Origin: Planctomycetia bacterium
GTDB taxonomy: Bacteria; Planctomycetota; Planctomycetia; Pirellulales; JALHLM01
Direction of reading: 5' to 3'
Length of the DNA stretch: 64,000 bases
Assembly (NCBI GenBank): GCA_034440135.1
Contig: JAWXBP010000231.1
Coordinates: 1-64,000, forward strand
Shown here: piece by piece, positions 22,699 to 53,211 of the stretch
How positions within the stretch are numbered: the first letter of the stretch is position 1
Layout: every line of letters begins with the position of its first letter
Notes under the pieces: model-generated
The model's input: only the letters and a program-made list of their open reading frames with translations
Told to the model about the DNA's origin: nothing
The model's database searches: none
Position numbers and translations under genes: made by a program

Positions 22699-22852
22699 AG
22701 TGTCACCGGACTGTTTTCGCCAGCACTTGCCCCGGAATTTCTTCGTTAACCGGGAAAACTTCACCGGGGGTTGCTCCGTCTATCTTCTCGGGCGGAATCT
22801 ACATTTACGGGTACGATTCGGCGGCATCAAGGAACGGCGGAGGGTGCAGACC

Positions 22853-25800
22853 ATGAGTTCGTTGCGCGCGTGGGCTTGGGGCGTCGTGTGGCTGGCAGCG
22901 GTTGGCGCGGCACGGGGGGCGGACGAACCTGCCAAACCCGCCGGACCGGAACTTCCGCCAGCGATCCGGCAGTTGATGCAGGACCGCGACTACGACGGCG
23001 CCGTGAAAGCGCTCGACGAGGCGGCGGGCCAGCCGGCGGCGTCGCGCGATTTTCTGCTTTTTCTGAAGGGCCGCGCGCAACATCTGTCCGGCGCGTACGA
23101 CACCGCAATCGAGACTCTCGCCGCGGTGGAGAAGGAGTTCCCCGAGTCCGTCTGGGGACGCCGCGCCGGCTTCGCGAGGGGCGTCTCGTTCGCGCGGAAG
23201 GGAGATTTCCGCGAGGCGGAATTGATCTATCGCGGCCGCGCCGAAGGGTTGCTGGGCGCCGATCGCAAGCAGGGCTTCGCCGATATCTATCTGGAGTTCG
23301 CCGAAACGTACTTCAAGCCGCCGAAAGAAGAGATCGCCCCGGACTTCCAAAAAGCGCTCGACTTTTACAATCAGGCCCTCGACGTCGGACCCAAGCCGGA
23401 GAAGCGGATCGAAGTCGAACTGCAAGTCGCCAAATGCTTCCAAAAGCTAGGCAATTTCGCGGAGGCGGTCAATCGACTCACGCAATTCGTGAAAGATCAC
23501 GCAGGGCATGCGCTGGAGATCGAAGCACGTTACGTGCTGGGCGAATCGCAATTCTCGCTGGGCGACCCAGTTGCCGCGCGCCGCACGTGGCAGGACCTGA
23601 TCGCGGCCTTCCCAGAGGCCGAGTCGGAACGCCTGGCGGAAGCGCGCTATGCCCTGGCGCAGACCTATGGGATGCCCACGCCCGGCCATGCGGAAGATCT
23701 TTACGCCGGCGTCGCGGCGCTGCAAGCATTCATCGAAAAACATCCGACGCACAAGCTCGCTGGGCAAGCGCACATCGTGATCGCACAGGGACAAATGCAC
23801 CTGGGCCGGATTGACGAAGCGATCCAGACGCTCACGGCCTTCATCGGCAACGATCGCTACGCGGATCAGGAGCAGGTGCCCGACGCCCGCAATATGCTCG
23901 GCGGGGCGCTCCAGCGGCAGAAGAAGTATGTCGAAGCGCTGGCGGCCTGGCGCGATTATCTGGCCAAGCATCCCACGCATCACGCCTGGAATTCAGTGCA
24001 GTTGGAAATTATCAACACGGAATATCTGCAAGGCGCCGACGAGCGCGAGCGGAAGCAATACGACGCCGCGCGCAAGCTCTGGGGAGAGTTCCTGGTGAAA
24101 TATCCGCTCGACATGCGTGTCGCGGGCATCCTCTACCAGTTCGGCCTGATGCAGTACGAGCAAGAAAAGTGGGACGACGCCCAGTCGGAATGGCGCCGGC
24201 TGGTTTCCAAGTATCCGAATACGGAAGAATCGTCGCTCGCGCAGTACATGATTGGCGTGTTGCTGGAGGACAAGCTCGGCAAACTGGCCGAGGCGCTGGA
24301 GGAGTACAAGAAATGCACGTGGGGCAGTTCCGCCGCGAATGCGCAGCAACGCATCGCCCTGCTCACGGCCAAAAACCTGCGGATCGCCACGGAGCGCGTC
24401 TTCCGCAGCGACGAAATGCCTAAGATCAAGCTCAGCACCCGCAACATCGATCGCGTGACGGTGCGAGCGTATCGCGTCGATCTGGAGACCTATTTCCGGA
24501 AGATGCATCTGGCGACCGGCGTCGAAGGACTCGACATCGCGTTGATCGACCCGGATCGCGAATTCGAATTCGAAGTGCCCAAGTACAACGAATTTCAGCA
24601 ACTCGATAGCGAGATCGAGATTCCGCTGTACGAAGCCAAGGAAGTCTTGGATCGCAAGGGGCCGATGTCCGGCGTGATGGCCGTCACGGTGAGCAGCAAG
24701 ACGTTCGAGGCCACGACGCTCGTCGTGCAGAGCGACTTGGACGTGATCGCGAAGAGCTCGCGCGAAGAAGTGTTCGTCTTTGCCGAGAATCTGCGGACCG
24801 GCGAACCGTGGCCGAACGTCCGGCTGTTGATCTCCAATGGCAAGCAAGTCTTCGCCGAAGGCAAGTCCGGCGACGATGGCGTGTTCCGCCAGACGTATGC
24901 CGAGTTGAAAGACACCGCGGACGTCCGCGTGTTTGCCGTGAGCGACGCGCATACGGCGTCGAACCTGGTCAGCCTGTCGGGCGTCGGCATCGCGCAAGGT
25001 CTGGTCGACAAGGGCTACCTTTATACGGACCGACCGGCGTATCGCGCAGGGCAATTGGTGCACATCCGCGGCGTCGTGCGCGCGGCGCAAGGGGACGTCT
25101 ACGTCGTCGAAAAGGACAAGCAGTACTCCGTGGACGTCTACGACGCGCGGAATCGCCTCGTGCGCCAAGAGAAGGTCAAGCTCGGCGAGTTCGGTAGCTT
25201 CCACTTGCATTTCGTGCTTCCTCAAGCCGCGGCGCCGGGAACGTACCGCGTGCTGGCGCATGATGAGTTGGGACACAACTACCAAGGCGAGTTCCAGGTT
25301 CATGCCTATCAACTGGAACCGGTGCGGCTGGTCGTCGACACCGATCGAAAAGTGTTCTATCGCGGCGAAGACATCGTCGGCAAGATTCGCGCCGAGTATT
25401 ACTACGGGGCGCCGCTGGCCGATCGAGAGTTCCGCTACCAACTGGCGGGCGGGCGCGTGGAAACCGGTCGCACGAACGACAAGGGAGAACTGGAGTTCAA
25501 GTTCCCGACGCGTGAATTCCGCGAAGCGCAAGCGTTGCCCTTGGTGGTCACGTTGCCGGAACGCAACCTGCAAACCGGTGTGAACTTCTATCTCGCCACG
25601 CAGGGCTACACCATCGGCGTCGCGACGCCCCGGTCTGTGTACGTCGGGGGCGAGACCTTTGAAGTGGTCGTCACCACGACCGACGCCGAAGGGAAACCGA
25701 TCGCGCAGGCGTTGACGCTCGACGTGGTCGAACAAACGACCGTTGAAGGGCGCGCCGGCGAAAAGTCGGTCGCCAAGCACCCGCTCGAAACCAGCGCCGA

Positions 25801-28800
25801 CGACGGCCGCGGGCGCGTGACGCTCAAGCTGGAGCATGGCGCCAACTACGTGTTGCGCGTCGAAGGCATCGATCGCTTTAAGAATCGCGTATCCGGTGAA
25901 AGCGCCGTGCAGATCTCGGACGACTCGGACTCGATTCGGCTGCGCATTCTGGCCGAAAGGCACACCTACAAGGTCGGTGACAACGGCGTCGTCCGCCTAC
26001 ACTGGCGCGAAGCGCCGGCCTTGGCGCTCGTCACATTTCAGGGCGCGCGTGTGCTCGATTACAAACTTGTCCGCCTGCACACCGGCGAGAACGAGTTGGC
26101 GATTCCCATGACCGCGGGGCTCGCGCCGAACTTCGAGTTGGCCGTGGCCGTGATGACCGATCCGCGCAAGCTGGTCGATGAAAAAGGCCAGGCATGCTTG
26201 CGATTCCACGAAGCCAGCAGCCCCTTCACCGTGGAGCGCGGATTGAAGATTCAACTCACGCGCCGCCCCAAGCCGGGCAACGCCGCGTGGCAGCCGGGTG
26301 ACGCCCTGGAAGTCGTCGTCTCCACGACGGACCCGCAAGGCAAACCGGTCTCGGCGGAAGTGGGTCTGGCGATGATCGAGCAGGCGCTGCTAGATCGCTT
26401 TGCCGGTTCGCAAGGCATGATCGGCGACTTCTTCCGCGGCCAGCCGCGCGAGCCGGCCGTGCGGACGACAAGCAGTTCCACGTTTTGCTATCACCCCGAC
26501 ACGCGGTCGATCAACCAGCAACTGCTGGCGGAGGAAGATCGCGTCGAGATCGCCCGCGCGGAAGCCGAACGGCTGCGCGAATTCAGCGACGAGGGCCTGG
26601 AATCCGCCACGCGGGCGGCGCGTAGCATCGACACGCATTGGAGCGCCGACGTGCCGGTGGCGGTCGAGTTGGCGGCGCCAGCCGCGGGGAATATGGATGC
26701 CGACGCGGACCCTTTCGGCGATAGGCTGCAGCGCCGCGCTGGGCACCCCTATGGAGGCGGCGAAGGCGGAGCAATGGACCTTCGATTCAAGGAATCACTA
26801 GGCAAATCGCAAGCCGGAGTTATGGTTGAGGAGTTGGTCAGCGGTGACATGAATGCCCCGGACACGAAGCACAATGCCAGCAACGATTTTGGCTGGCACG
26901 TGTACTTTGCGGAAAGCGATCGCCCGCAGATCCAGGAAGAAAAGCTCGGCGTGTTGAACCGCTACTCCGAACTGGGGCTCAAGGACGCCAACGTGTTGTT
27001 CGCGAATGGAACCGTGCGGTATTTGAACCTCCATCAACTGGCCGCCGACGACAATCTGGGCCGTATTCTCGTCCGGCAGTGGGCCGAACAAGGCGCCGTG
27101 GTGTTGCCGTTGGTCGATTGGCAAGAGACCGGCTACTGGAACCCCGCGGTGGTGACCGACGCCTCGGGCACAGCCACGGTGTCGATCGTGTTGCCGGATC
27201 GCTCGACCGCCTGGAAGCTGCAAGCCAAGGGAATCACCGCCGACACGTTGGCCGGCGAGGCCGAGGATGCGCTGGCGGTCAAGAAAGATTTGTTCGGCGA
27301 ATTGAAACTGCCGAGCGCCTTCACTGACGGCGATCAGGCCGAAGTGTTGGCGACGATTCACAACAACTTGCTCGACACGGGCGAAATCAAAGTCACGCTC
27401 AAGGCGACCTTTGCCGGCAAATCGATCACAGAAACTAAGACCGTCAAGGTGACTGGCAAGGGGATGCAGGAAGTCACGTTCCCGATCACGGTCGAGCGCC
27501 CCGCAAGCGCCGCTGGGGCGGATTTGGACGGCGCGTTCGAATTGACCGTGGCCACGGGCGACGTCACCGATGTAACGCGCCGCAGCGTGGCGCTAACGCC
27601 GTTCGGGATGCCCGTTTACGCCTCGTCGTCCGGTTCCGCGCAGAGCGACGCAACCTCGTGGCTCGAACCGCCGAGTGAGATGAAACTCCAGGCGCAGACG
27701 TTGCAGATCATCGTCGGACCGACCGTCGAACGCAGCTTGCTCGATATCGTGCTCGGCGAATCGTCGCCCGTGCTGCGTGAACGCCTGGCGTACACCTCGG
27801 GCATCGACTCCACGACCAGCGACTTGATGGCCGCTGTCGGCTTGCAAGAGTTGATCGGCGCGGCGCGCGAGGCCGCTGGGCCGGAATCGAACGCGCTCGA
27901 CGAGCGGATTCGTTCCGCGCTCGGTCTGTTGATTGCCGCGCAGAACGACGACGGCGGCTGGAGTTGGACGGGCAAGCAGACGGCGAGCGATCGCTTCACC
28001 TCGGCTCGTGTGCTGTGGGCGATGAGCCTGGCCCGTGCAGCCGGGTACGCCGTGCCGGCCGACGCCTTCGACCGCGCGGCGAACTACCTGCAAACGCTGA
28101 TCGCGCAGACCGCGGAGGACGACTATGAGACCAAGGCGGTGTTGCTGCATGCCTTGGCGACCGCCGACCGCGGCGACTTTACGCTGGCGAATCGATTGTA
28201 CCGCAATCGCCCGGCGCTTTCGAATGCGGCGCTCGCGCATCTGGCCTTGGCCTTCGTGGCGATGCAACGCAACGCGACGGCCGGCGAATTGCTCGCCGTG
28301 CTGGCCGAACGCAACCTCGACGATCAATCCATGCGGCGCGAAGCGGCGCTCGGCTGCTTGCCGTGGAATCAATCGTCGGTCGAACTGCGAGCGCTGTACG
28401 CCTTCGCCTCGATGCAAATTGCGCCGCAGAGCCCGAAAACGCGCGAGTTGGTGAACTGGCTGATGGAACATCGCACCGGCAACCGCTGGGCGCCGGACAA
28501 GGCGACCGGCCCCGCGACCGTGGCGTTGGCGAAGTGGTTCGCCGCGCAGCGATTCGCCGGCGAGCACTACAAGCTAAGTGTGTTCGTCAACGACACCCAG
28601 GTGGAAGTCGTTGACGTTGATGAAAACTCGGGCACGCGGACGATTGAAGTGCCGATCAAGTTCCTCAAGGAAGGCAAGCAGCGCGTTAACTTCCAACTCG
28701 CGGGGCGCGGGCGTTTCACCTATCAATGCGTGCTAAGCGGCTTCGTACCGGCGGGCGAATTGAAAGGCACGTCCGCCGCCTGGGGCATCGAACGGCATCA

Positions 28801-31039
28801 CGAGCCGGCGCCGCTGGAATTCGACGGGCAACCTGTTTCGCGCGGTTTCGGCATCCTGGAAGGGAGCTACCAACACTTCCGCAACCCACTCACGCAATTG
28901 CCGGTCGGCCGGCGCGGCTTGGTGGAGATCAACCTCTGGCGACAGAATCTGACGGGCAGCGAACCGGAAGAGCAGTTGGAATATCTGGTCGTGACCGAGC
29001 CGATTCCCGCTGGGACGACCGTGATTGAGCAATCGATCACCGGCGGCTTCGAGCGCTACGAAATCTCGCCGGGCGCGATCACGTTCTACATCGGCACGCG
29101 ACGGTACATCGAAGGGATTCGGTACGAAGTCCACGGCTATCTGCCTGGCAAGTATCGCGCCTTGCAAACCGTGCTGCGGAGCGCTTATCGACCAGACCAA
29201 TTCGTCACCACGACGGTCAAGGATTTGGCCGTGCTGCCGCTCGGTGCCCAAAGCGCCGACGAGTACCGACTCACGCCGCAGGAATTGTACGAGTTGGGCA
29301 AGCGCCACTTCGAACGGCACGACTACCAGGCGTCTGGTAAACATCTGCAGGACCTGTTCACCAACTGGAAGCTGCAGGCCGATCCATACAAAGACACGGC
29401 GCGGATGTTGTTAGATATTCACCTGGAGACCGGACCCGATCGCGAGATCGTGCGGTTCTTCGAGATCATCAAAGAGAAATGGCCTGACCTGGAATTGACC
29501 TTCGATAAGATCATCAGGGTCGGCGCCGCCTACGACGCGCTCGGCGAATACGAACGGGCGTATCTGGTGTTCCGCGCGACGGTGGAAAACAGTTTTCTCC
29601 GCGAAAGCGCGGTGCCGGCGTTCCTCGAAGGTCAGGGCGAATTCCTCCGCAGCGTCGACGTGATGCGCAAGACGTTGGGCGACTACCCGCCGGAGCCGTA
29701 CGTGGCGGCGGCGACGTATTCGCTAGCGCAACGCGTGTTCAGCAAAGCGCCTACGGCGGCCGATGATCCGAAACTGCGCGAGAAAAAAGTCAATCGCGTC
29801 GACCTGGTCCGTCAGGCGGCCGGCATGTTGAACGACTTCCTCACGCAACACTCCGACGATCCGGCCGCGGATCAGGCGAGCTTCAGCGTCGCGGCGGCGC
29901 TGTTGGAATTGAAAGCGTTCCGCGAAGCGATCACCTCCTGCGAGCGCTATGCGGTGCGCTATCCGAAGAGCAAATACGTCGATAGCTACTGGTACGTGAT
30001 CGGCTATTCGCACTTCTCGCTAGGCGAGCACGAGCAGGCACTTCAAATGTGCCGCAAGGTGGCCGAGGCCAAATTCGCCGAACCGAATGGCGTCGAGCGC
30101 GAGAGCAACAACAGGTGGCAAGCGGTGTACATCCTGGGGCAGGTGTATCACAGCCTCGGCAAGGCGGCCGAGGCGATTTTAGAATACACCCGCGTGGCAG
30201 ACCGTTTCCCGGACGCGGCCCAGGCGATTCAATACTTCGTGCGGAAGGAAATCGCGCTGCCGGAAGTCTCGACCATTCGCCCCGGCGAGCCGGCCACGGT
30301 GGAACTCAAGTTCCGCAACGTGGCGGCCTGCGACGTGAAGGTCTATCGGATCGACTTGCTGAAGTACAGCTTGCTGAACCGCAACCTGGGCAACATTACG
30401 CAGATCAATCTGGCCGGCATCCGGCCGTTCCATGAAGTGGCGGTGGCGCTCGGCGACGGCCAGGACTATCGCGATCGCACGCAGAAGCTGGAACTGCCGA
30501 TGAAGGACGAAGGGGCTTACCTCGTCGTCTGCCGGGGCGAGGATTTGCACGCCAGCGGGCTGGTGTTGATCACGCCGCTCGGCATGGAAATCCAGGAGGA
30601 AGCCTCGTCCGGCCGCGTTCGCGCGACAGTGAAAAACGTCCTGCTGGATAAATTCGTCGCCGACGTGCATGTCAAGGCGATCGGCTCGGCGAACTCCGAT
30701 TTCACCTCCGGCGAAACCGACCTCCGCGGCGTGTTCGTGGCCGACGGCATCACCGGACAATCGACGGTGATCGCGCGGCTGGAGAACAATCGCTACGCCT
30801 TCTATCGCGGCCAACATTGGCTGGGCCAACCGCCGGCGCCGACGGAAGCGCCACAACAGCAGGCCTTGCCAACGCCGAGCGACGGCGCGGAATCGAAGCA
30901 AAAGCTGGAAGGACAATTGCTGGACCAACTCTACGAAAGCAACAGCATGATCCAGTCCGGCCAGAATGAGTATTTTGACAAGAATTTCTATCAGCAGAAC
31001 CGGAAAGGCGTCCAAGCGGCGGAAGCGGCGGCGGAGTAG
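22853..31039 (+). CDS. Giant secreted TPR / alpha-2-macroglobulin-like protein
   Basis: This 2,728-residue protein starts with a signal peptide (cleavage near AARGA) and an N-terminal TPR array (about 40-510). Macroglobulin-like beta domains begin near 523 (TRNIDRVTVRAYRVDLETYF) and include GYLYTDRPAYRAGQLVHIRG near 719. The A2M core motif is near 1425 (TGYWNPAVVTDASGTATVSI). The alpha/alpha thioester-type domain follows from about 1600, with DDGGWSW near 1699. A second TPR array spans about 2140-2465, and a final macroglobulin-like domain (VELKFRNVAACDVKVYRIDLL) ends near 2660. The thioester GC(T)EQ is absent; GIDST (1650-1654) stands there. The ATG at 22853 has a GGAGGG ribosome site. Possible role: envelope protease trap or scaffold. 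Confidence 0.88.
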   Translation: MSSLRAWAWGVVWLAAVGAARGADEPAKPAGPELPPAIRQLMQDRDYDGAVKALDEAAGQPAASRDFLLFLKGRAQHLSGAYDTAIETLAAVEKEFPESVWGRRAGFARGVSFARKGDFREAELIYRGRAEGLLGADRKQGFADIYLEFAETYFKPPKEEIAPDFQKALDFYNQALDVGPKPEKRIEVELQVAKCFQKLGNFAEAVNRLTQFVKDHAGHALEIEARYVLGESQFSLGDPVAARRTWQDLIAAFPEAESERLAEARYALAQTYGMPTPGHAEDLYAGVAALQAFIEKHPTHKLAGQAHIVIAQGQMHLGRIDEAIQTLTAFIGNDRYADQEQVPDARNMLGGALQRQKKYVEALAAWRDYLAKHPTHHAWNSVQLEIINTEYLQGADERERKQYDAARKLWGEFLVKYPLDMRVAGILYQFGLMQYEQEKWDDAQSEWRRLVSKYPNTEESSLAQYMIGVLLEDKLGKLAEALEEYKKCTWGSSAANAQQRIALLTAKNLRIATERVFRSDEMPKIKLSTRNIDRVTVRAYRVDLETYFRKMHLATGVEGLDIALIDPDREFEFEVPKYNEFQQLDSEIEIPLYEAKEVLDRKGPMSGVMAVTVSSKTFEATTLVVQSDLDVIAKSSREEVFVFAENLRTGEPWPNVRLLISNGKQVFAEGKSGDDGVFRQTYAELKDTADVRVFAVSDAHTASNLVSLSGVGIAQGLVDKGYLYTDRPAYRAGQLVHIRGVVRAAQGDVYVVEKDKQYSVDVYDARNRLVRQEKVKLGEFGSFHLHFVLPQAAAPGTYRVLAHDELGHNYQGEFQVHAYQLEPVRLVVDTDRKVFYRGEDIVGKIRAEYYYGAPLADREFRYQLAGGRVETGRTNDKGELEFKFPTREFREAQALPLVVTLPERNLQTGVNFYLATQGYTIGVATPRSVYVGGETFEVVVTTTDAEGKPIAQALTLDVVEQTTVEGRAGEKSVAKHPLETSADDGRGRVTLKLEHGANYVLRVEGIDRFKNRVSGESAVQISDDSDSIRLRILAERHTYKVGDNGVVRLHWREAPALALVTFQGARVLDYKLVRLHTGENELAIPMTAGLAPNFELAVAVMTDPRKLVDEKGQACLRFHEASSPFTVERGLKIQLTRRPKPGNAAWQPGDALEVVVSTTDPQGKPVSAEVGLAMIEQALLDRFAGSQGMIGDFFRGQPREPAVRTTSSSTFCYHPDTRSINQQLLAEEDRVEIARAEAERLREFSDEGLESATRAARSIDTHWSADVPVAVELAAPAAGNMDADADPFGDRLQRRAGHPYGGGEGGAMDLRFKESLGKSQAGVMVEELVSGDMNAPDTKHNASNDFGWHVYFAESDRPQIQEEKLGVLNRYSELGLKDANVLFANGTVRYLNLHQLAADDNLGRILVRQWAEQGAVVLPLVDWQETGYWNPAVVTDASGTATVSIVLPDRSTAWKLQAKGITADTLAGEAEDALAVKKDLFGELKLPSAFTDGDQAEVLATIHNNLLDTGEIKVTLKATFAGKSITETKTVKVTGKGMQEVTFPITVERPASAAGADLDGAFELTVATGDVTDVTRRSVALTPFGMPVYASSSGSAQSDATSWLEPPSEMKLQAQTLQIIVGPTVERSLLDIVLGESSPVLRERLAYTSGIDSTTSDLMAAVGLQELIGAAREAAGPESNALDERIRSALGLLIAAQNDDGGWSWTGKQTASDRFTSARVLWAMSLARAAGYAVPADAFDRAANYLQTLIAQTAEDDYETKAVLLHALATADRGDFTLANRLYRNRPALSNAALAHLALAFVAMQRNATAGELLAVLAERNLDDQSMRREAALGCLPWNQSSVELRALYAFASMQIAPQSPKTRELVNWLMEHRTGNRWAPDKATGPATVALAKWFAAQRFAGEHYKLSVFVNDTQVEVVDVDENSGTRTIEVPIKFLKEGKQRVNFQLAGRGRFTYQCVLSGFVPAGELKGTSAAWGIERHHEPAPLEFDGQPVSRGFGILEGSYQHFRNPLTQLPVGRRGLVEINLWRQNLTGSEPEEQLEYLVVTEPIPAGTTVIEQSITGGFERYEISPGAITFYIGTRRYIEGIRYEVHGYLPGKYRALQTVLRSAYRPDQFVTTTVKDLAVLPLGAQSADEYRLTPQELYELGKRHFERHDYQASGKHLQDLFTNWKLQADPYKDTARMLLDIHLETGPDREIVRFFEIIKEKWPDLELTFDKIIRVGAAYDALGEYERAYLVFRATVENSFLRESAVPAFLEGQGEFLRSVDVMRKTLGDYPPEPYVAAATYSLAQRVFSKAPTAADDPKLREKKVNRVDLVRQAAGMLNDFLTQHSDDPAADQASFSVAAALLELKAFREAITSCERYAVRYPKSKYVDSYWYVIGYSHFSLGEHEQALQMCRKVAEAKFAEPNGVERESNNRWQAVYILGQVYHSLGKAAEAILEYTRVADRFPDAAQAIQYFVRKEIALPEVSTIRPGEPATVELKFRNVAACDVKVYRIDLLKYSLLNRNLGNITQINLAGIRPFHEVAVALGDGQDYRDRTQKLELPMKDEGAYLVVCRGEDLHASGLVLITPLGMEIQEEASSGRVRATVKNVLLDKFVADVHVKAIGSANSDFTSGETDLRGVFVADGITGQSTVIARLENNRYAFYRGQHWLGQPPAPTEAPQQQALPTPSDGAESKQKLEGQLLDQLYESNSMIQSGQNEYFDKNFYQQNRKGVQAAEAAAE

Positions 31040-43853: not shown

Positions 43854-45134
43854 GTGAGTAAATCGAACCGGATGGCCCTGGCGCTGATGCGCTCCTCCGC
43901 CTTGTGGGGCGGCTTCGCGGCGCTGGGCTTCTATACGCTCATTCACACGATCAATTTCGGCGGTGATTTCCTATACCGCTATTGCGCCAGTCACCCGATC
44001 GTCTACGCCGAAACCATTTTGTTCTTTATCGGCATGGCGGCGTTGGTGATTCGCTGGTTCGAAGTCGGCGCACAATCCAAATTGACAGCAAAGCCGCTGC
44101 TCCCAGCCATGGGCAGCACGCCGGAACCACCGACGTCGGCACAGCGACTGCTCGGCAACATCAGCGCGCTGCCGGCGCTCAAACAAGCCAGCTACCTGGG
44201 CCAGCGGCTGCGCGCTGCCCTGCTGCACATCGCCCGCACTGGCACCGCCGATGGGCTGGACGACGAGCTGAAGTACCTTTCTGAAGGCGAGTCGATCAAG
44301 GCGCACTCCGGTTACGCCTTGGTGATGATCATCGTCTGGGCGATCCCGATTCTCGGCTTCCTCGGCACCGTCGTCGGCATTACTAATGCCATTGGAAACC
44401 TATCACCGGACGCGCTCGAAGCATCGCTTCCCGCGGTAACGGCCGGCCTCGGCGTGGCTTTCGATACGACGGCGCTCGCTTTGGCGCTGTCGATGGTGCT
44501 GATGTTCACCAAGTTCCAGGTCGCCAAAGACGAAGAAAAGATGCTCAATGAGGTCGACCTTCGCGCCAGCGAAGAGTTGGCCCTGCGCTTCGAACAACGC
44601 GGCACGCAGCGCGACCCGCAGTTGTTGGCCATCGCCCGGATGACGGAATCGGTCGTCGAGGCCTGTGGCAAACTGGTGGAACGTCAGGCAGAGATCTGGC
44701 AGTCGACGCTCGGCGCATCACAGCAGCAAATGCAACAATCGCTCGCCGCTTCGATGGCGCAAGGGCTCGAAGCCCACGCCGCGCGGCTGGCGGCGTCGGC
44801 CGAATGGCAGACCGAACAGAATCACCGTTACTGGAATCAATTCCAGCAAGCACTCGGCGAGAACGTGCAGAATCTGCGCTCCGTGCAAGGCGACATGGTC
44901 AAACAAGGCCAGGTGCTGCGCGACGTGCTGGTCGCGATGGGGCAACTCACCGGGTTGGAAGACGCGCTCAATCGTAACCTCGCGGCGCTGGCCGGATCGC
45001 AGAACTTCGAAGAAACGCTGCTGAATCTCGCCGCCACGATCAATCTACTGAACGCCCGCCTGGCCCACGCGCCGGGCGCCGCTGGACATGAAGCGGTCGC
45101 CGTGCGGAGCGCCCGGGTAGGCCACGCCGCATGA
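43854..45134 (+). CDS. MotA/TolQ/ExbB-family proton channel protein with long C-terminal tail
   Basis: This 426-residue inner-membrane protein has TM helices at about 16-34, 49-67, 153-175 and 196-218. The core TM3 motif IPILGFLGTVVGITNAIG and TM4 motif LPAVTAGLGVAFDTTALALAL match TolQ/ExbB/MotA. In contrast to ExbB, it ends with a Gln/Ala-rich helical tail of about 200 residues (QQQMQQSLAASMAQGLEAHA, then NLRSVQGDMVKQGQVLRDVL). The GTG at 43854 is chosen for its AAGGA ribosome site. It is coupled by a 4-base ATGA overlap to the next gene and heads a five-gene motor-like cluster. Confidence 0.9.
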   Translation: MSKSNRMALALMRSSALWGGFAALGFYTLIHTINFGGDFLYRYCASHPIVYAETILFFIGMAALVIRWFEVGAQSKLTAKPLLPAMGSTPEPPTSAQRLLGNISALPALKQASYLGQRLRAALLHIARTGTADGLDDELKYLSEGESIKAHSGYALVMIIVWAIPILGFLGTVVGITNAIGNLSPDALEASLPAVTAGLGVAFDTTALALALSMVLMFTKFQVAKDEEKMLNEVDLRASEELALRFEQRGTQRDPQLLAIARMTESVVEACGKLVERQAEIWQSTLGASQQQMQQSLAASMAQGLEAHAARLAASAEWQTEQNHRYWNQFQQALGENVQNLRSVQGDMVKQGQVLRDVLVAMGQLTGLEDALNRNLAALAGSQNFEETLLNLAATINLLNARLAHAPGAAGHEAVAVRSARVGHAA

Positions 45135-46873
45135 AGCGCCGCGCCGCGCCGAACGATGCCGCCAAGTTTTCGCTGTTCCCGTTCCTGGCGGTCCTGCTGT
45201 GCGTGATGGGGGCGTTGATCGTCCTGCTGATCGTCATTGCGCAGCGGACCCACGACCGGGCCGTCGCGCGCAGTGATGCCGACGAGGCCGGCGAACATCT
45301 CAAAGTCGAGCGCGAGGAACTGGGCTGGCGAATCGACATGATCCACGCATCGCGCGATCAGACCGCGGCGCAGCTTGCCGAGCAGCGCGCCGGTTTGAGT
45401 CACATCGAAGATCACGCCCGACGCTTGCGCGAACAATACCGCGCACTTCAACAAGCGGCCAAGGATCTGCAACAATCACTGAAAGCGCCCTCGGTCGCGA
45501 ACCAGGCGCTCGACGACGAGATGGCGGCGATTCAGGCCCGCATTCGCGAGGTTACTGAGGCCCTCGACGCGAAGAAACTCGTTCCGCAGCAAGCCCCCGG
45601 CTATGCGATTATGCCCTACGAGGGCCCGAACGCCACGCAACGCAGGCCGATGTACATTGAATGCACCGACGACGGCATCATACTTCAGCCCGAAGGCGTG
45701 GTCCTGACGGCCGACGATTTTCTCGGGGCCCTCGGTCCCGGCAATCCGTTGGCTGCCAGCATGCGGGCGGCGCGCGAATACTTGCTCCGCAATCGCAATA
45801 ACGATGGCAGAGAAGCGGGCGAACCGTATCCGCTGCTGTTGATCCGTCCCGACGGCATCGGCGCGTATTACGTCGCGCGGGCGGCGTTGACCTCTTGGGG
45901 AAGCGAGTTCGGCTACGAGTTCGTCGATCAGGATTGGAAGCTCGAATACCAGGAACTCGACCCGCAACTCCTGGCGGTCACCAAGGCCGCCGCCGAAGAC
46001 GCCCGTGAACGGCAACGCCTACTGGCGATTGCTGCGCCGAAAGTATTTCAGGGCGCTGAAGACGACGGGACCTATTTCCGCGCCTCGCCCTCCACCGGCG
46101 GAGTGATGGTGGATGGACGCTCGGCACGCCGATCCTCCAGCGGACGACGTAGCGGAAGCGGTCGCGGCGCAGGCGGTGGTTCAGGCCCAGGGGATGAATC
46201 CGTCCCCGGCGACCACGACGGGCCCAAGAACCGCGGCGGCTTTCAGCGCAGCGGCGATAGCATGGCCGCCAACGAAGGAGGCGGCAATTCCGCCCAGGGC
46301 GGTGGCAACACAGGGCAGCGCGCTGAAGCGGGCAGCGGTCAGCCTGGTTCAAGCGGACAGTCCGCATCGCAGGGCACGGAAGCCGGCAAGCCGGAATCTA
46401 ACACCGCCTCGCGTAGCAATGGACAAGAAGATCAAGCACCGGGCGGCGAGCCGCTGCGGCAAGGGCAATACATGCCGAAGCAAAGCCTCGCATCGCGTCG
46501 CGGCAAAGATTGGGCGGTCCGCGATCAAGGCCCGAGCGCGGTACCGATCAGCCGAAAGATCCGCGTGCGTTGTACGCCCGAGCAGTTGGACATCCTCGCC
46601 GACGGCGGCACGAAGAGCGAACACGTCGTGGCGCTAGGGCCGCGCACCGAAGATTCCATGGAAGAGCTGGTCTCGCGCGTCTGGGATCACATGGATCGCT
46701 GGGGCATCGCCGGCCAGAACATGTACTGGAAACCGCAACTGCAGTTCGAAACCACGCCCGACAGCCAGCCGCGGTATCAAGAAATCAAAGCCCTACTGGA
46801 AGGCAGCGGTCTCGATGTCGCGGAAAAAACGAAGGCTAGCACGGCACGCGGGGCGACGAAAAAGCCGCGGTGA
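45131..46873 (+). CDS. Single-pass membrane protein with MotB/ExbD-like topology and a low-complexity linker
   Basis: This 580-residue protein has a short cytoplasmic N-terminus, one membrane helix (FPFLAVLLCVMGALIVLLIVIA, about 16-37) and a coiled coil (about 55-130). A globular domain of about 180 residues follows (RRPMYIECTDDGIILQPEGV, LLLIRPDGIGAYYVAR). Next comes a Gly/Ser/Gln-rich linker of about 130 residues, and then a conserved-looking C-terminal domain (RCTPEQLDILADGG, MDRWGIAGQNMYWKPQL). The helix lacks the membrane Asp of true ExbD/MotB. It overlaps the channel gene by ATGA. The family is not recognised outside planctomycete-type proteins. Confidence 0.75.
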   Translation: MKRRAAPNDAAKFSLFPFLAVLLCVMGALIVLLIVIAQRTHDRAVARSDADEAGEHLKVEREELGWRIDMIHASRDQTAAQLAEQRAGLSHIEDHARRLREQYRALQQAAKDLQQSLKAPSVANQALDDEMAAIQARIREVTEALDAKKLVPQQAPGYAIMPYEGPNATQRRPMYIECTDDGIILQPEGVVLTADDFLGALGPGNPLAASMRAAREYLLRNRNNDGREAGEPYPLLLIRPDGIGAYYVARAALTSWGSEFGYEFVDQDWKLEYQELDPQLLAVTKAAAEDARERQRLLAIAAPKVFQGAEDDGTYFRASPSTGGVMVDGRSARRSSSGRRSGSGRGAGGGSGPGDESVPGDHDGPKNRGGFQRSGDSMAANEGGGNSAQGGGNTGQRAEAGSGQPGSSGQSASQGTEAGKPESNTASRSNGQEDQAPGGEPLRQGQYMPKQSLASRRGKDWAVRDQGPSAVPISRKIRVRCTPEQLDILADGGTKSEHVVALGPRTEDSMEELVSRVWDHMDRWGIAGQNMYWKPQLQFETTPDSQPRYQEIKALLEGSGLDVAEKTKASTARGATKKPR

Positions 46874-46910
46874 GGAAGGTAGGAGTAAAGGAGTAAACGA
46901 GCCCAGTGGC

Positions 46911-46967
46911 TGAATAGCTGAAAACTGAAAACCGCGTTGTGGCACGGTCGGGAGACCGTGCCACAAC
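46911..46967. repeat. Two intergenic repeat families in the motor cluster
   Basis: A gctgaaaactgaaaac fragment (46917-46932) precedes a perfect hairpin of 14-bp arms, gttgtggcacggtc (46936-46949) and gaccgtgccacaac (46954-46967), with loop ggga. The same two families occur together at 4481-4605. Upstream, at about 46882-46897, is the ggagtaaaggagta repeat also found near 31060. The hairpin could terminate or attenuate transcription between the second and third genes of the cluster. Confidence 0.75.
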
Positions 46968-46998
46968 AGAGCAACACCGAAAACGCCAAACTCCTCCC

Positions 46999-48000
46999 AT
47001 GCGTAAACGAAACGACGATACCGAAGTCTTCGGCAGCGACTCCTTTTTGGACATCGTGTGCAATGTCGTCGGCATGTTGATTATTTTGGTGGTGATCGTG
47101 GGGATTCGCGCCGGCCAGGCGGGGAAGGTTACGGCGCCGGACACGGCTGCCGCGGAACAGGCGCTCGGCGCGCTGCAGGGCGAGCACGCTGCCGCCGAGG
47201 CTGAGGTGTTGAGGCTCGCCAACGAGATGCGCAGCGTTGCGATGCAAGCGCAGTCACTGTCGCGCGAACGCGACGCCATCGCAGTGCTCGTCGCCGCCGG
47301 GGAGCGGATGCTCGAAGACAAACGCAAAGCCCTCGACGCGCATGCACAGGAAGATTACGGCCGGCGACGCGCGGTCTCCGAAGCGACGCAACAACTCGCC
47401 GTGCTCGAACAGCAGCTCGCCGCGCCGCTCGATCAGGCGCCGGCGGTGAAACTGACCAGCTACCAGACGCCGATGAGCAAATCGGTGAACGGCAAGGAAC
47501 TGCAATTCCAATTGCGCGGCGGACGCGTGACGATGATCCCGATCGAGGAACTGCTGGATCGCTTCAAGTCGGATGCTCAGGCCAAGGTCTATCGTCTGCG
47601 CAGCCAGCCGGAACTGACCGAAACGATCGGGCCGATTGGCGGCTTTCGCATGCGTTACATCCTGGAACGGATCGACGCCTCGGTCGAAGAGCAAATGCGG
47701 GCCGGACGCTCAATGTCGGTCGTCCAACTCGCCGAATACACGCTCATCCCGGACTCGATGGTGCTCGGCGAGACATTGGATGAAGCGCTCGCCAGCCGCT
47801 CGCAATTCCATGCCGATCTCACGCCCTACAAGCCGGCCGAGACCGCGGTCACGCTCTGGGCGTACGAAGACAGCTTCAAAGAATATCGGGCGCTCAAAGA
47901 GGATCTCCATCGCCTCGGCTACGCGGTCGCCGGACGCCCGATGCCGCACGGCCAACAAATCGGCGGCTCGCCCCAGGGCAGCCGGTCCGCGGCGCAATAG
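46999..48000 (+). CDS. ExbD/MotB-like single-pass membrane protein with coiled coil
   Basis: This 333-residue protein starts with a short cytoplasmic segment and one membrane helix, DSFLDIVCNVVGMLIILVVIVGI (about 14-36). The Asp in FLDIV sits where ExbD/TolR carry their proton-conducting Asp. A coiled coil (about 45-150, rich in Ala, Glu and Arg) and a C-terminal domain (VTMIPIEELLDRFKSDA, FRMRYILERID, VTLWAYEDSFKEYRALKEDL) follow. It is the third gene of the motor cluster. I do not recognise a named family for the C-terminal domain. Confidence 0.75.
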   Translation: MRKRNDDTEVFGSDSFLDIVCNVVGMLIILVVIVGIRAGQAGKVTAPDTAAAEQALGALQGEHAAAEAEVLRLANEMRSVAMQAQSLSRERDAIAVLVAAGERMLEDKRKALDAHAQEDYGRRRAVSEATQQLAVLEQQLAAPLDQAPAVKLTSYQTPMSKSVNGKELQFQLRGGRVTMIPIEELLDRFKSDAQAKVYRLRSQPELTETIGPIGGFRMRYILERIDASVEEQMRAGRSMSVVQLAEYTLIPDSMVLGETLDEALASRSQFHADLTPYKPAETAVTLWAYEDSFKEYRALKEDLHRLGYAVAGRPMPHGQQIGGSPQGSRSAAQ

Positions 48001-48075
48001 TCGCTTTCTCTACGCGGCGCTGAGAGCGGAAGCGCCCTACTTCCGCGTGCCGAGTTTCGCGTTCATAATTGCCGC

Positions 48076-48510
48076 ATGCGCCGCCCCACTGCTTATCCCG
48101 CCGGCCGTGGCTTCGAAGTGATGATGACGCCGATGATCGATGTCGTCTTTCTGCTGCTGGTGTTTTTCGTCTGCACCGCGGGTTTCAACCGTCCGGAAGA
48201 AGAACTGCCGAGCCGGCTTTCCGACTCCGGCGTTGGCGGAGCGCCTGTCGCGCCGCGGCCGGAAGATGACTTTGAGGAGATCGTGATCACGCTGCGCGAA
48301 AGCGCCGGCAGGCTAGAGTATCAGGTCAGTGAACGGCGCTGCGCCGATGCGGGCGAAGTCCGTGAAGTCGTGCGCGCGCTGGCGGAAATCGACGATCAAC
48401 TCGCTGTTATTCTGGACGTCGCGCCCGAAGTACCGCTCGGCCTCATGATCGACATCTACGACAGTTGCCGCGCCGCCGGATTCGAGCGGATTCAATTCGC
48501 CGCGCATTGA
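48076..48510 (+). CDS. ExbD/TolR-family biopolymer transport protein
   Basis: This 144-residue protein has the typical ExbD layout: a basic N-terminus, the membrane helix MMTPMIDVVFLLLVFFVCTA (about 16-35) with the conserved MTPMIDVVF containing the proton-path Asp, and a periplasmic domain ending with the family-like VILDVAPEVPLGLMIDIYDSCRAAGFERIQFA. It should pair with the ExbB/MotA-like channel encoded four kilobases upstream. It lies 75 bases after the previous gene. Confidence 0.93.
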   Translation: MRRPTAYPAGRGFEVMMTPMIDVVFLLLVFFVCTAGFNRPEEELPSRLSDSGVGGAPVAPRPEDDFEEIVITLRESAGRLEYQVSERRCADAGEVREVVRALAEIDDQLAVILDVAPEVPLGLMIDIYDSCRAAGFERIQFAAH

Positions 48511-48542
48511 GGTCAACCGAGTAACTGCCCAACAACTGTGGC

Positions 48543-48548
48543 TATAAT
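48543..48548 (+). promoter_or_regulatory. Consensus -10 element directly before the TPR gene (possible leaderless mRNA)
   Basis: A perfect TATAAT lies 6 bases before the ATG at 48555, so transcription would begin at or next to the start codon. No ribosome-binding site precedes the ATG. The -35 region at the right distance (agtaac/gtaact) is poor. Confidence 0.45.
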
Positions 48549-48554
48549 ACGTCC

Positions 48555-51065
48555 ATGGCGCGTCTCGTCGTTATTTTTGCGGCCATTGCACTACTGAGCC
48601 ACGCAGTCTTGCGCGCCGCGCCCTTGGTCACGCCCCATGATGATCGACTCTCTGCCTGGCGAGCCGCTGGAGAATACGCGGCCGCTGAGCAGTATTGCCG
48701 TCAGCAACTGGAGCGCACCTCGCTCACGAACGCCGAGCGCCATGCGCTGACTTTGGAGCTCGCGCAATTGGCTTTGGAACATGCGCTGCGCACGCCGTCG
48801 GCGGATGCAGAGCCGCTGTGGCAAGCTGCGCGTGAGACGGCCCGCAACTATGCCGATCAGTACGCCAACAATCCGCGCCGCGCGCAGTTGTACGCGCAAT
48901 CCGGTCTGGCGTATCTGGCGGAAGGGGAAACCCTGCTGGCCATTCACGGTGAAGCGGCGGAACCTCCGCGAGTAACTTTGCGCGAGGCGATCAAACTATT
49001 CCGTCGCGCGCGAGAACTGACCGAGGCCGAAACGCGGCAATCGCCACGCGGCGCGCGGCGCGAAGTCCTCGCCGGCGCCATTGCGCCTTGGGATTTCGCT
49101 GAACTGCGTTCCACCGATCGCAACCTCCGCTACGAGTTAGGTAGGGCATTGCGGCGGCAGGCGGAGTCATATCCCGCCGGCAGCGAAGACCGCGCGCTCG
49201 CTGCAAGCCAGGCAGCGGAGTTATTCGGCGCGCTGAGCGAACTGGCCGACACAGAACCGCTCGCCTGGCCGAGCCGCGTTCAGTTGATCGGTTGTGAACG
49301 CTTGCAGTCGCACTGGGACGCGGCGGCGATGGCGATCGCGCGTTGCGAAATGGATTCATTCCCGGCGTCGGAACGCGGCGTGCTGCGTGCCGAACGATTG
49401 CGCCTGGCGCTGGCGCGCGAAGACGTCGACGGCGCAATGCGCATTGCACTGCAGCCGGACGATCAAGGCCGCGAACGGGCGTTGGAGGAGGACTTAGCGT
49501 TATTAGAAGTCCAACTCGCGGCCGCCGAGCGCGCTGCAGCCGACAAAGATCAGGAAACCGCGCGGCGGCACAGCGCCGAGGCCTCGCGTCGCGTGCGGAT
49601 CATCGGCGAGCGCTGGGGCGTTTTTTGGGGCGACATCGCCGCGGCGCGTCTCGCGCGCCAACTGACGTCCGGCAACGCGACGGCCGATTATCAAGCCTGG
49701 TCCCAGGCCGGCGACGCACTTTACCAACAAGGTCAGGCGGACCAGGCACTCGCCGCGTACGATCAAGCACGTCAGCAATCCAGTGACGCGGGAGATCTCG
49801 ACGCCGCACTGCTGCTCGGCATGAAAGGGGCCGCAGTCGAACAAGCCCGGGAACGGTTCGCGCAGGCGGCGGAGCGCTTTCGCGTTGCGGCGATTGCACA
49901 TCCGCGGAGTCCTCGCGCGGCCGACGCGCATTATGCGGCGATTTACAATCTCGCCAGCAGCGGCGCAGACGAAGCGGCCCAAGTTCCCTGGCTGGAAGAA
50001 CACCTCGAACACTGGCCGAACGCATCCTCGGCGAGTCCAGTGCGGATTGCGCTGGCGGAATCGCACGCGCGAGACACTGACTTTCGCGTGGCGATCGAGC
50101 TGCTCGCAAAAGTCGACGCGCAGGAACCGCTCGCCGCGACGGCCGTGCGAACTGCGCGCGACGTGTATCAGCGTTGGCTCGCGCCATTGCCGCCCGGCGT
50201 GGAACGGCGGCAGGTCGTCGATAGCGCACTGCGCCACTTCGCAACGTATCAGCAACCATCGGCGGCAGGTGAAGCCGCCGGTTCGGCAGCGCTCATCGCA
50301 GCCATTGCGGAAGCGGAGTTGCTTATTTGCGAGCGACAATCCTATGCCGCCGCGGAAGCGGCAATCGCCACGGCGCTGCGAACGGCGGAAGCAAAGCACA
50401 CGGAGCGCGCAGCGGCGGAAGCCTGGCGTCTCGCAGCGCAAGCATTGCAGCCCGATCAAGCTGCCGCAGCGCACGACGCTCTGTCAAACCTCCCGAAGAC
50501 GCCCGGCGAAACGCTCGAAGCGATCTACGTCGCGTTGGAAGCACTGCCCGTCGAGGTCGATCCAGCGAGCGCACGGCAACTCGCCGTGTTTCAATTGGAA
50601 CTGATCCAGCGCCGACAAGCTGGTCTCAAGGCCGATGATTTGCCAGCGCAACGGACTTGGGAACTACGACGCGCTACCGTGCTGGCCGCCGCCGGGCGTG
50701 CGGAAGAAGCGATTCAACAACTTCGCAAGCTCCGCGGCGCCTCGCCAGAAGACGTCGCCGTCACCACCACGCTGGGACGACTCCTCGCGGAATCCAAGGA
50801 TGCGAACATCCTGCGCGAAGCGCTCGAATGCTGGCGCGCCGTCGAACGTGCGACGGCCGCCGGAACAACGGAATGGTTCGAAGCGAAGTACCAACTCGCC
50901 GAGTTGCATCATCGGCTGGGTGACAACCCCCGCGCGGCGAAGATCATTCAACTCACGCGCACGTTGCACCCTGAGCTAGGCGGCGCGACGTGGAAGGGAC
51001 GATTCGAGGCGCTGTTGGAGCAATGTCAGTCAGCAACGCGCAACGAACTTGAACGAATTCCCTGA
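48555..51065 (+). CDS. Secreted TPR-repeat protein of the motor cluster
   Basis: This 836-residue protein has a signal peptide (MARLVVIFAAIALLSHAVLR, cleavage after RAA) and an almost entirely alpha-helical, Ala-rich mature part with at least ten TPR-like units. Examples are YAAAEQYCRQQLERTS, ADYQAWSQAGDALYQQGQADQALAAYDQARQ (two joined segments) and AEEAIQQLRKL. It should act in the periplasm as a scaffold, perhaps linking the ExbD-like domains to cargo or the outer membrane. It is 44 bases from exbD and may also have its own promoter. TPR proteins next to ExbBD genes occur in other bacteria (e.g. TtpC-like). Confidence 0.78.
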   Translation: MARLVVIFAAIALLSHAVLRAAPLVTPHDDRLSAWRAAGEYAAAEQYCRQQLERTSLTNAERHALTLELAQLALEHALRTPSADAEPLWQAARETARNYADQYANNPRRAQLYAQSGLAYLAEGETLLAIHGEAAEPPRVTLREAIKLFRRARELTEAETRQSPRGARREVLAGAIAPWDFAELRSTDRNLRYELGRALRRQAESYPAGSEDRALAASQAAELFGALSELADTEPLAWPSRVQLIGCERLQSHWDAAAMAIARCEMDSFPASERGVLRAERLRLALAREDVDGAMRIALQPDDQGRERALEEDLALLEVQLAAAERAAADKDQETARRHSAEASRRVRIIGERWGVFWGDIAAARLARQLTSGNATADYQAWSQAGDALYQQGQADQALAAYDQARQQSSDAGDLDAALLLGMKGAAVEQARERFAQAAERFRVAAIAHPRSPRAADAHYAAIYNLASSGADEAAQVPWLEEHLEHWPNASSASPVRIALAESHARDTDFRVAIELLAKVDAQEPLAATAVRTARDVYQRWLAPLPPGVERRQVVDSALRHFATYQQPSAAGEAAGSAALIAAIAEAELLICERQSYAAAEAAIATALRTAEAKHTERAAAEAWRLAAQALQPDQAAAAHDALSNLPKTPGETLEAIYVALEALPVEVDPASARQLAVFQLELIQRRQAGLKADDLPAQRTWELRRATVLAAAGRAEEAIQQLRKLRGASPEDVAVTTTLGRLLAESKDANILREALECWRAVERATAAGTTEWFEAKYQLAELHHRLGDNPRAAKIIQLTRTLHPELGGATWKGRFEALLEQCQSATRNELERIP

Positions 51066-51072
51066 GTCGGCG

Positions 51073-53211
51073 CTACGCCCCTTCCTTGTCCTTCAACATC
51101 TGCGCCACCTTTTTCTGCCAAAGTTCCACACGGTCCTTGCGCGATTTGCCGTCTTCCTCGCGGGGGTCGTAGGGGTGGCGCATGCCGGTCAATTGGCGGA
51201 GGTTCCAATGGGCGAGCACGCGGTAGTCGATGTCCTGGTGTTCCAGATCGGCCAGGAGTTCCTGCGCAGCGCCGCCTTTGACGAACTCCTCTTCGGTGTA
51301 ACCCCAAAGTAGCCGGTAGAGACCTTGAGCGTCACTGGAGCGAGCTTTTTCCAAGGCAACGCGGACCTTGGCCGCGTCCTCGGGGCTACGGGCCATGCTG
51401 GCGCGTAGTTCTTCGATCTGCCCGTCCCAGGCCGGCCATTGGGCGGGATCGCTGAGAATCGCCACGAAGTCGTCGTACTCGCCGATCAGCGCCAAACACT
51501 TGGCGGCCAGCGAACGCAGCTCGCGTTGGCGGTGATTCGCCGCTTCTTTCAGAGAGACGATCACCGGGCGATCGGTCGCGATTCCTTCTTCGATCGCGGG
51601 CGCGGCGATCGATTCGCCGGTCTTGCTCTTGTCGCGGATCCACTTGGGCACGTCACCGCCAGCCACCGGCGCTGCGGGGTCGGTCGTCCACAGCAGCGGC
51701 GACGCCAACTCCGCGGGGGCTTCGGCCGCCGCGCCTTGCCAGCCGAGCTTTCCGCTCACCAGGCAAAACTCAATGTTCAACCGCGCCGGCGTTTGTTCCG
51801 GGTCGCTACCGTTAACTAGTTCCGGCCGCACTTCCACGGCGAGCATCGATTTCGTATCGGGGAACGTCACGACCCGTTCCTGGTCACCAATCAACAACCG
51901 CACCGGCGATTGCGGATCGCTCAGCGGCATCAGAATCATGCGACCATACAGGATCCGCAAGGCAGGCGTGCCGTCGCTGTCTGGACCTTCGACCACGACC
52001 TGCGTCGCGCCGGACATTTCCACGGCCACGCCGTTCGAGAGCGTCACGGCGGGGCTGAATCGCGGAAAGGCCAGCAGGCGATCACCCGCGAAAACGGCAT
52101 CTCCTTGCACCAACCGCTTCCAGATACCCGCATCGGTCGCGAAGCGCAACAGCACGTCCTTCTGCAGGAAACAACGCCCGACTTCACTCGCCACGGGCGC
52201 TGCCGGCGCGGCATCTGAACCGGAACTGTCCGCGTCGGCGCCGTCTTCGGTCGGCGTAGCATCGGCCTCCGCCGTGTCGTCAGGAGCATTGTCGGTCGTG
52301 TCCGCGTCGGGGGTGGGCGGCGACGGCGCATCGGCCGTAACTGCTTCGTCCGTCGCTGTCTCGGCCGCAACCGGCTTCAGCGCCGGTGACTTCACCGTCC
52401 GTGCCGTATCATCAGTCGCCGGCTCCTCATCATTTGACGTCGTCGACGATTCATCATCGGTGACCGTTTCGTCGGTATCGACTACTTCTTCGTCAGTCGC
52501 AGGCGATTGCACTTCGTCCTTGTCGGCGACTGTAACCGCATCTTTTGCGTCGTCGCCGTCGCCTTGCGCGACTTGCGGATTTGCGCCCGTGCCGCGCAGT
52601 TGACTCAGTAGTCTTTCCGGCCCAATTGCCATCACCGCGACCGCCGCCAACAAGAGCGCCGCCGCAAGGCCGATCGCCACCTTGAGCAGGGTTCGCGAGC
52701 CCGGTTTGTCCCGCAGGTATTCCGGAACGTTCATCTTGCGTCGCGTTTTCGAGAGCGGCGCAAGCACTTCCGGCTCCGCCACCGGCGGCGCTGCGACCGG
52801 CGGGGCCGGCTCGGGCGGTTGCTGCGGCGCATCGATCAGTCCATACAACTTGCGGCGCAAATCCGGTTCGACCTGCGCGCTCTCACCGAGCACCAACGCC
52901 AGGATGTGATGGCAGGCGGCCGATTCCGCCAAATGCGCGTCGGACTCCAGGCAAATCCGCTCGAACTCCGGAATTCGATCCGTGGGCAGCGTGTTATCGA
53001 GATACTCCGCGACGGTGTTGGCGTCGCCGCCCAGCCCGCGGCCTTCGACCTTGGGCGCACCGAGACGCAGCCGGCACTGCACGTCGCGGACGCGATGCAT
53101 GATTCCGGCGGCGCCCTCGTTCTGCTCGATCTTGCGGCGCAGCTCCTCCGCGTCAGCCGGTGAGAGCACCCCGTCCATGTAGGCGAGCATGGTGCGTAAC
53201 GTGAGTCGCAT
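51073..53211 (-). CDS. Anti-sigma / FecR-like single-pass membrane protein
   Basis: This 712-residue protein has a cytoplasmic N-terminal helical domain (MRLTLRTMLAYMDGVLSPAD, about 1-130) resembling zinc-less anti-sigma factors. A Pro-rich segment and one membrane helix (LLKVAIGLAAALLLAAVAVM, about 178-197) follow. A strongly acidic Asp/Thr/Glu/Ala linker (about 215-340) leads to a periplasmic beta-rich domain (about 345-550) with FecR-like features (AGDRLLAFPRFSPAVTLSNGVAVEM, LRILYGRMILM). The C-terminus is helical (RHPYDPREEDGKSRKD, LWQKKVAQMLK). No sigma-factor gene is adjacent. It converges with the motor-cluster TPR gene, 7 bases apart. Confidence 0.72.
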   Translation of the reverse strand: MRLTLRTMLAYMDGVLSPADAEELRRKIEQNEGAAGIMHRVRDVQCRLRLGAPKVEGRGLGGDANTVAEYLDNTLPTDRIPEFERICLESDAHLAESAACHHILALVLGESAQVEPDLRRKLYGLIDAPQQPPEPAPPVAAPPVAEPEVLAPLSKTRRKMNVPEYLRDKPGSRTLLKVAIGLAAALLLAAVAVMAIGPERLLSQLRGTGANPQVAQGDGDDAKDAVTVADKDEVQSPATDEEVVDTDETVTDDESSTTSNDEEPATDDTARTVKSPALKPVAAETATDEAVTADAPSPPTPDADTTDNAPDDTAEADATPTEDGADADSSGSDAAPAAPVASEVGRCFLQKDVLLRFATDAGIWKRLVQGDAVFAGDRLLAFPRFSPAVTLSNGVAVEMSGATQVVVEGPDSDGTPALRILYGRMILMPLSDPQSPVRLLIGDQERVVTFPDTKSMLAVEVRPELVNGSDPEQTPARLNIEFCLVSGKLGWQGAAAEAPAELASPLLWTTDPAAPVAGGDVPKWIRDKSKTGESIAAPAIEEGIATDRPVIVSLKEAANHRQRELRSLAAKCLALIGEYDDFVAILSDPAQWPAWDGQIEELRASMARSPEDAAKVRVALEKARSSDAQGLYRLLWGYTEEEFVKGGAAQELLADLEHQDIDYRVLAHWNLRQLTGMRHPYDPREEDGKSRKDRVELWQKKVAQMLKDKEGA

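Follow-up and report, generated by a model that had tools for sequence, protein, structure and literature searches.

We analysed 64,000 nucleotides of a Planctomycetia bacterium (assembly GCA_034440135.1, contig JAWXBP010000231.1, positions 1 to 64,000; the whole stretch is called the window hereafter), whose 7.3 Mb genome belongs to the Pirellulales. Our subject is a set of five co-directional genes, A to E (Table 1), above all the first three, which encode a MotA/TolQ/ExbB-type channel subunit (A) and two unlike single-pass membrane proteins (B and C). An earlier note on this DNA had read all five as one motor cluster, in which an ExbB/TolQ-type channel with a helical tail of about 200 residues is joined by three different single-pass partners and a periplasmic TPR scaffold. 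Its description of the parts was borne out. All five open reading frames lie where it placed them, A matches PF01618 (E 8e-11, 42 bits, above the cut-off of 22.9) and ends in such a C-terminal helical tail, the helix motifs it quoted read as claimed (FPFLAVLLCVMG in B, SFLDIVCN in C, MTPMIDVVF in D), and B has a Gly/Ser-rich linker at about residues 329-455.

The reading frame of A starts at the GTG at 43854, with an alternative ATG at 43872, and its stop overlaps the start of B by four bases (ATGA at 45131). Alignment with TolQ places a Thr of A on the conserved pore Thr of TolQ, and the Asp of the AFDTT motif lies two residues ahead of it. A scan for promoters and terminators did no better on the window than on shuffled sequences.

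Table 1. Positions of the five genes and their main features in the window (aa, amino acids; pLDDT, predicted local distance difference test).
Feature	Position	Strand	Basis or remark
A, MotA/TolQ/ExbB-type channel subunit, type 1 (GTVVGIT, AFDTT)	43854..45134	+	426 aa from GTG; PF01618
A, Asp codon of AFDTT	44463..44465	+	residue 204 from GTG, 198 from ATG 43872
B, single-pass partner without Asp	45131..46873	+	580 aa; helix, coiled coil, domain 1, Gly/Ser linker, C-terminal domain
B, pore-type transmembrane helix	45170..45253	+	residues 14-41; aligned in register with C helix
B, Ala20 codon	45188..45190	+	site aligned with C Asp18
B, periplasmic domain 1	45608..46030	+	residues 160-300; RRPIYIEC..D.I.LQPEG ... 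PYPLLLVRP ... EFGYEL; alignment, AlphaFold model
B, Gly/Ser-rich disordered linker	46115..46495	+	residues 329-455; pLDDT, composition, alignment
B, C-terminal domain	46532..46825	+	residues 468-565; hhalign against domain 1
C, single-pass partner with Asp	46999..48000	+	333 aa; helix, coiled coil, periplasmic domain, conserved C-terminal tail
C, Asp18 codon	47050..47052	+	invariant DSFLD motif
C, periplasmic domain	47476..47973	+	residues 160-325; pLDDT mostly >90
D, ExbD2-type protein	48076..48510	+	PF02472, 4e-16
E, large periplasmic TPR-like protein	48555..51065	+	weak TPR matches only

The membrane helices of B and C, both of which extend into long helices (coiled coil), align in register when their profiles are compared, with Ala20 of B opposite Asp18 of C (hhalign E 1.2e-5); on these profiles we take them to be paralogous pore-type helices. 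Asp18 is invariant in two alignments of C. The AlphaFold model of B has a pLDDT of 72.7 overall, above 90 for most of domain 1 and the C-terminal domain and below 50 over residues 329-445. The linker holds 32 Gly and 21 Ser in 127 residues, and its length is highly variable among relatives. Domain 1 of B probably occurs a second time as the C-terminal domain (hhalign E 9.7e-6, probability 83%). We dropped the wider idea of one domain in three copies, two in B and one in C, and limited the repeat to B, because hhalign showed no homology between the periplasmic domain of C and the domains of B. The tail of C is conserved (IGGSPxGSxSAAQ). Its terminal Gln/Glu is nearly invariant (47958-48000), and most relatives have Ala-Ala as the last two residues of A (45108-45134); this conservation of terminal residues suggests that the C-termini of both proteins are functional.

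The periplasmic parts of B and C resemble no described output domain among those we searched. Neither protein of the window gave a family beyond coiled-coil noise in Pfam, NCBIfam or PADLOC, nor did the two families as a whole in Pfam and NCBIfam, and sequence profiles of both matched nothing beyond coiled coils. PF02472 is absent from 61 C and 52 B proteins, and a vWA domain was found neither by Pfam VWA nor as a fold among the PDB matches listed; with no match of either kind, vWA and ExbD output domains were rejected. The model of the C periplasmic domain had no PDB match at E<=0.001, and the B model no significant one. Foldseek gave weak hits to uS11/actin-like folds for B and to integrase or kinase folds for C; none came near significance, and we disregarded them.

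Of the 58 genomes we searched, the window's own included, every one has a single copy of A and of B, and 56 have a single copy of C; the two genomes without C are fragmented assemblies in which A-B is present. B and C are adjacent, and at most Pirellulales loci A lies directly upstream, often overlapping. A-B-C synteny extends through the Pirellulales and beyond, to most of the Planctomycetia, a class in which C occurs in 199 of 249 members; outside it, matches to C are weak, with E values no better than 1e-7. What flanks the triad changes from family to family; the neighbours that we checked (queuosine genes, an aminotransferase, an S-adenosylmethionine hydroxide adenosyltransferase, signal peptidase II, a pyridoxal-phosphate enzyme) are housekeeping genes with no relation to it and give no hint of function. 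At the loci read, no ExbD gene stands beside A-B-C outside the window's genus. Because A, B and C co-occur adjacently while their flanks differ between families, the conserved unit is the triad A-B-C. The five genes are not one system. No description of the triad was found in the literature searched, and the main text of the Planctopirus limnophila essentiality paper does not mention its genes. Several families of the class also hold a paralogous mini-triad (L156-L158, L204-L206), with A' of 517-599 aa, B' of about 275 aa and C' of about 360-450 aa; its helices read DSLLD or DSLMD in C', where read, and FLS or FLD in B'.

The evidence that connects B to the channel comes from natural variation in A. 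Most channels are of type 1 (GTVxGIT...AFDTT), with Asp at the AFDTT site in 96% of them; type-2 channels (GTVxHFG...AFNTT) all have Asn there. The type-2 channel is a divergent A, found in 19 genomes and usually unlinked from B and C or divergently placed. The Asp of C is present in 98/98 parsed loci, and the aligned site of B is Ala in 81 of 88, Asp in six and Ser in one. When sets are sorted by channel, this site is Asp in 17 of the 19 type-2 genomes, Glu in one and Ser in one; the 75 non-type-2 sets have 73 Ala, one Ser, one Thr and no acidic residue. Other families of the class, from which we read extra loci, likewise gave no acidic B with a non-type-2 channel.

Gene trees, used here in place of a species tree, place this change in B more than once. 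On the A tree the type-2 channels group as one clade, within which the genomes with acidic B are again a single clade. Acidic B requires five changes on the C tree and six on the B tree, which was built with the pore helix left out, and at least four are forced by supported branches. Given a single type-2 clade of A and the repeated changes in B, the channel was replaced, either by transfer or by an old paralogue taking over, with B and C inherited locally. Remnants of a type-1 A survive upstream of an Asp-bearing B, in addition to an intact type-2 channel, in genus g302 (L226-L231) and in genome G430 (L211/L233); the pore motifs of the decayed gene are lost in both, and the tail is largely kept in g302.

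We propose that A-B-C is a dedicated motor of the Planctomycetia, driven by the proton motive force (PMF), in which the helices of B and C form one heteromeric axle (5:1:1), and we put the probability of this reading at about 60%. A would form the ring, presumably a pentamer, around an axle of one C helix with a proton-binding Asp18 and one B helix without an Asp. C would relay protons and serve as a second anchor. B would be the output arm, its coiled coil and folded domain being followed by the long Gly/Ser linker and C-terminal domain, which could extend through the periplasm in the direction of peptidoglycan or of the outer membrane. We see good evidence that the B helix works inside the A ring: with the helix in the pore, the channel-linked residue of B would be the residue turned towards the ring, and it is this residue that becomes acidic. 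A mixed axle of B and C is the simplest model because C, with its invariant Asp helix, is encoded by the gene adjacent to B. We infer the placement of both helices in one pore, the 5:1:1 stoichiometry, rotation, the direction of output and the physiological role. A stricter version is more tentative, and we would not bet on it: an obligate asymmetric 5:1:1 motor that runs on the single axle residue Asp18 of C, with B as a proton-blind lever and the ring Asp of type-1 channels taking the role that acidic B has with type 2.

Several observations weigh against our proposal. The co-variation shows functional matching between the B helix and the channel, but not that B and C lie in one pore. A phylogenetic independent-pair sign test had only 4-6 pairs to work with (median p 0.125); nearly all ran in one direction and none against, and the test is consistent with the proposal, not significant alone. 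There are exceptions to the pattern: one type-2 genome has Ser at the B site, two non-type-2 channels with Asn are accompanied by Ala or Ser in B, and L158, a mini-triad locus, pairs an AFDTT channel with Asp in B'. In family f96, all four loci read (L192, L193, L237, L238) lack an Asp in the B and C helices and have no linked A. Because these loci retain the periplasmic domains of B and C, and neither the Asp nor a linked A, the domains may have a role without the A-B-C motor. The f96 genomes were also seen to encode a long, unlinked ExbB-like protein with AFDSTLLALFLSA.

One ring protein could instead serve two homodimeric motors, an active A5C2 and an A5B2 that is inactive or plugged, in which B becomes active again with the type-2 channel. 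Such pairs of identical axles are what known 5:2 motors have, and the co-variation requires only that B sit in some A ring. The choice between homo- and heterodimer is likewise left open for AglQ and AglS (PMC9389320). We nevertheless consider two separate motors unlikely, as B and C are single-copy and adjacent in nearly all the same genomes and an Asp-less homodimer kept almost class-wide would be strange. Less probable still is an A5C2 motor to which B is attached from outside the ring as a transducer, in the manner of TonB or TolA. B does have the TonB/TolA layout of helix, disordered linker and C-terminal domain, but its helix (consensus SLFPFLAVLLCTMGALIVLL) contains no His and no SHLS-type motif and is an in-register paralogue of the pore helix of C. 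Moreover, the channel-linked site is exactly the pore-Asp position, changing to Asp or Glu. Compared with the PDB for a TonB/TolA C-terminal fold, the B model gave no significant match of any kind.

The grouping of the earlier note, one machine of five genes in which a TPR scaffold goes with three alternative single-pass partners, is the reading we find the hardest to credit. The five genes are co-directional with short gaps both in the window and in the other genome of its genus, but D and E follow A-B-C only in that genus, and no locus read outside it has them there. Relatives of E occur in 39 of the 58 genomes, outside the genus at other loci, and commonly come after ExbB-ExbD1-ExbD2, D being the counterpart of ExbD2; ExbB and two ExbD genes precede E in relatives L161, L164, L165 and L167. 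At L161 these genes (ExbB-ExbD-ExbD-TPR) are themselves preceded by two more, one for a vWA protein, whose helix is TonB-like and carries a His, and one for a small TPR protein. A vWA-TPR-TolQ-TolR-TolR-TPR operon of Planctomycetes-Verrucomicrobia-Chlamydiae bacteria has already been described (PMC12204202). The relatives of D and E sit at the end of such an operon, whereas those of the window adjoin A-B-C without the operon's other genes. The ExbB orthologue of this second operon stands isolated in the window's genome (L001, G000:C56, 1150-1926), with a biotin-ligase-like gene next and no ExbD after it. D and E are a displaced tail of the second motor operon and lie outside the A-B-C unit. 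Synteny in relatives thus upholds A-B-C and not D and E, the five-gene order being confined to the window's genus, and it largely refutes a single five-gene machine as a conserved unit. The earlier note had further suggested that the pore may hold a mixed pair of partners; co-variation of the B site with channel identity favours this for B and C only, and D falls away as a partner. No known family covering A-B-C was found in the libraries searched.

Two further open reading frames were observed in the window. One of 712 aa (51073-53211, minus strand) converges on E, is kept in the sister genome and has no Pfam match; the other spans 2779 codons (22700-31039, plus strand).

If the mixed axle is right, its two helices come from different genes, and usually only one carries an Asp, so that each axle can be mutated separately. 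Nature would already have offered a repeat of such an experiment, as swaps of the ring were accompanied by a new acidic residue on the blind axle. A-B-C is an apparent core envelope motor of the Planctomycetia, with output domains that match no described family.

The well-studied 5:2 motors are described as having a pair of identical, Asp-bearing axles, and models of their rotation rely on the two taking turns. A-B-C resembles ExbBD, TolQR and MotAB in the PF01618 domain and pore Thr of A and in the helix Asp of C. It differs in having two unlike axle proteins, one of them without the Asp, in the unfamiliar periplasmic domains of B and C and in the long helical tail of A. Of the features that define the MotA/TolQ/ExbB superfamily, A has the channel domain and pore Thr, and the partner Asp is found in C (98/98) and usually not in B; judged by sequence, A-B-C is a variant of the 5:2 kind. 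The best match of A in the defence library is ZorA (2e-10, part of the tail included), and the coiled coil of B also matches ZorA models weakly. Zorya was rejected, since the similarity is of the ZorA type only: no ZorB-, ZorC-, ZorD- or ZorE-type match was found among the five proteins, the flanks checked in some loci are unrelated, and A-B-C is class-wide and core, not island-like.

Systems with unlike partners come nearer. Like A-B-C, the AglRQS gliding motor of Myxococcus combines a single ring protein with MotB/TolR-type partners of two kinds, AglQ and AglS, both described with an Asp (PMC9389320); B usually lacks it, and the periplasmic domains of A-B-C have no PF02472 match. Whether AglQ and AglS form mixed axles is stated there as unknown (PMC9389320), and A-B-C makes this question directly testable. 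The closest published analogue is the heterologous TPH-vWA pairs that accompany TolQ-like proteins (PMC12204202, section 8), for which direct force transduction by pore-type helices inserted into the ring has been proposed (PMC12204202). As in those pairs, A-B-C joins a TolQ-like gene to two different single-pass proteins, with no tolR or exbD in the unit. The TPH-vWA pairs have vWA output domains, a conserved Asp in both partners and a distribution mainly in Proteobacteria and Verrucomicrobia (PMC12204202). A-B-C, by contrast, is found in Planctomycetia, and its B and C give no vWA match; with the common type-1 channel B has Ala and only C has the Asp, and both partners are acidic only with type 2.

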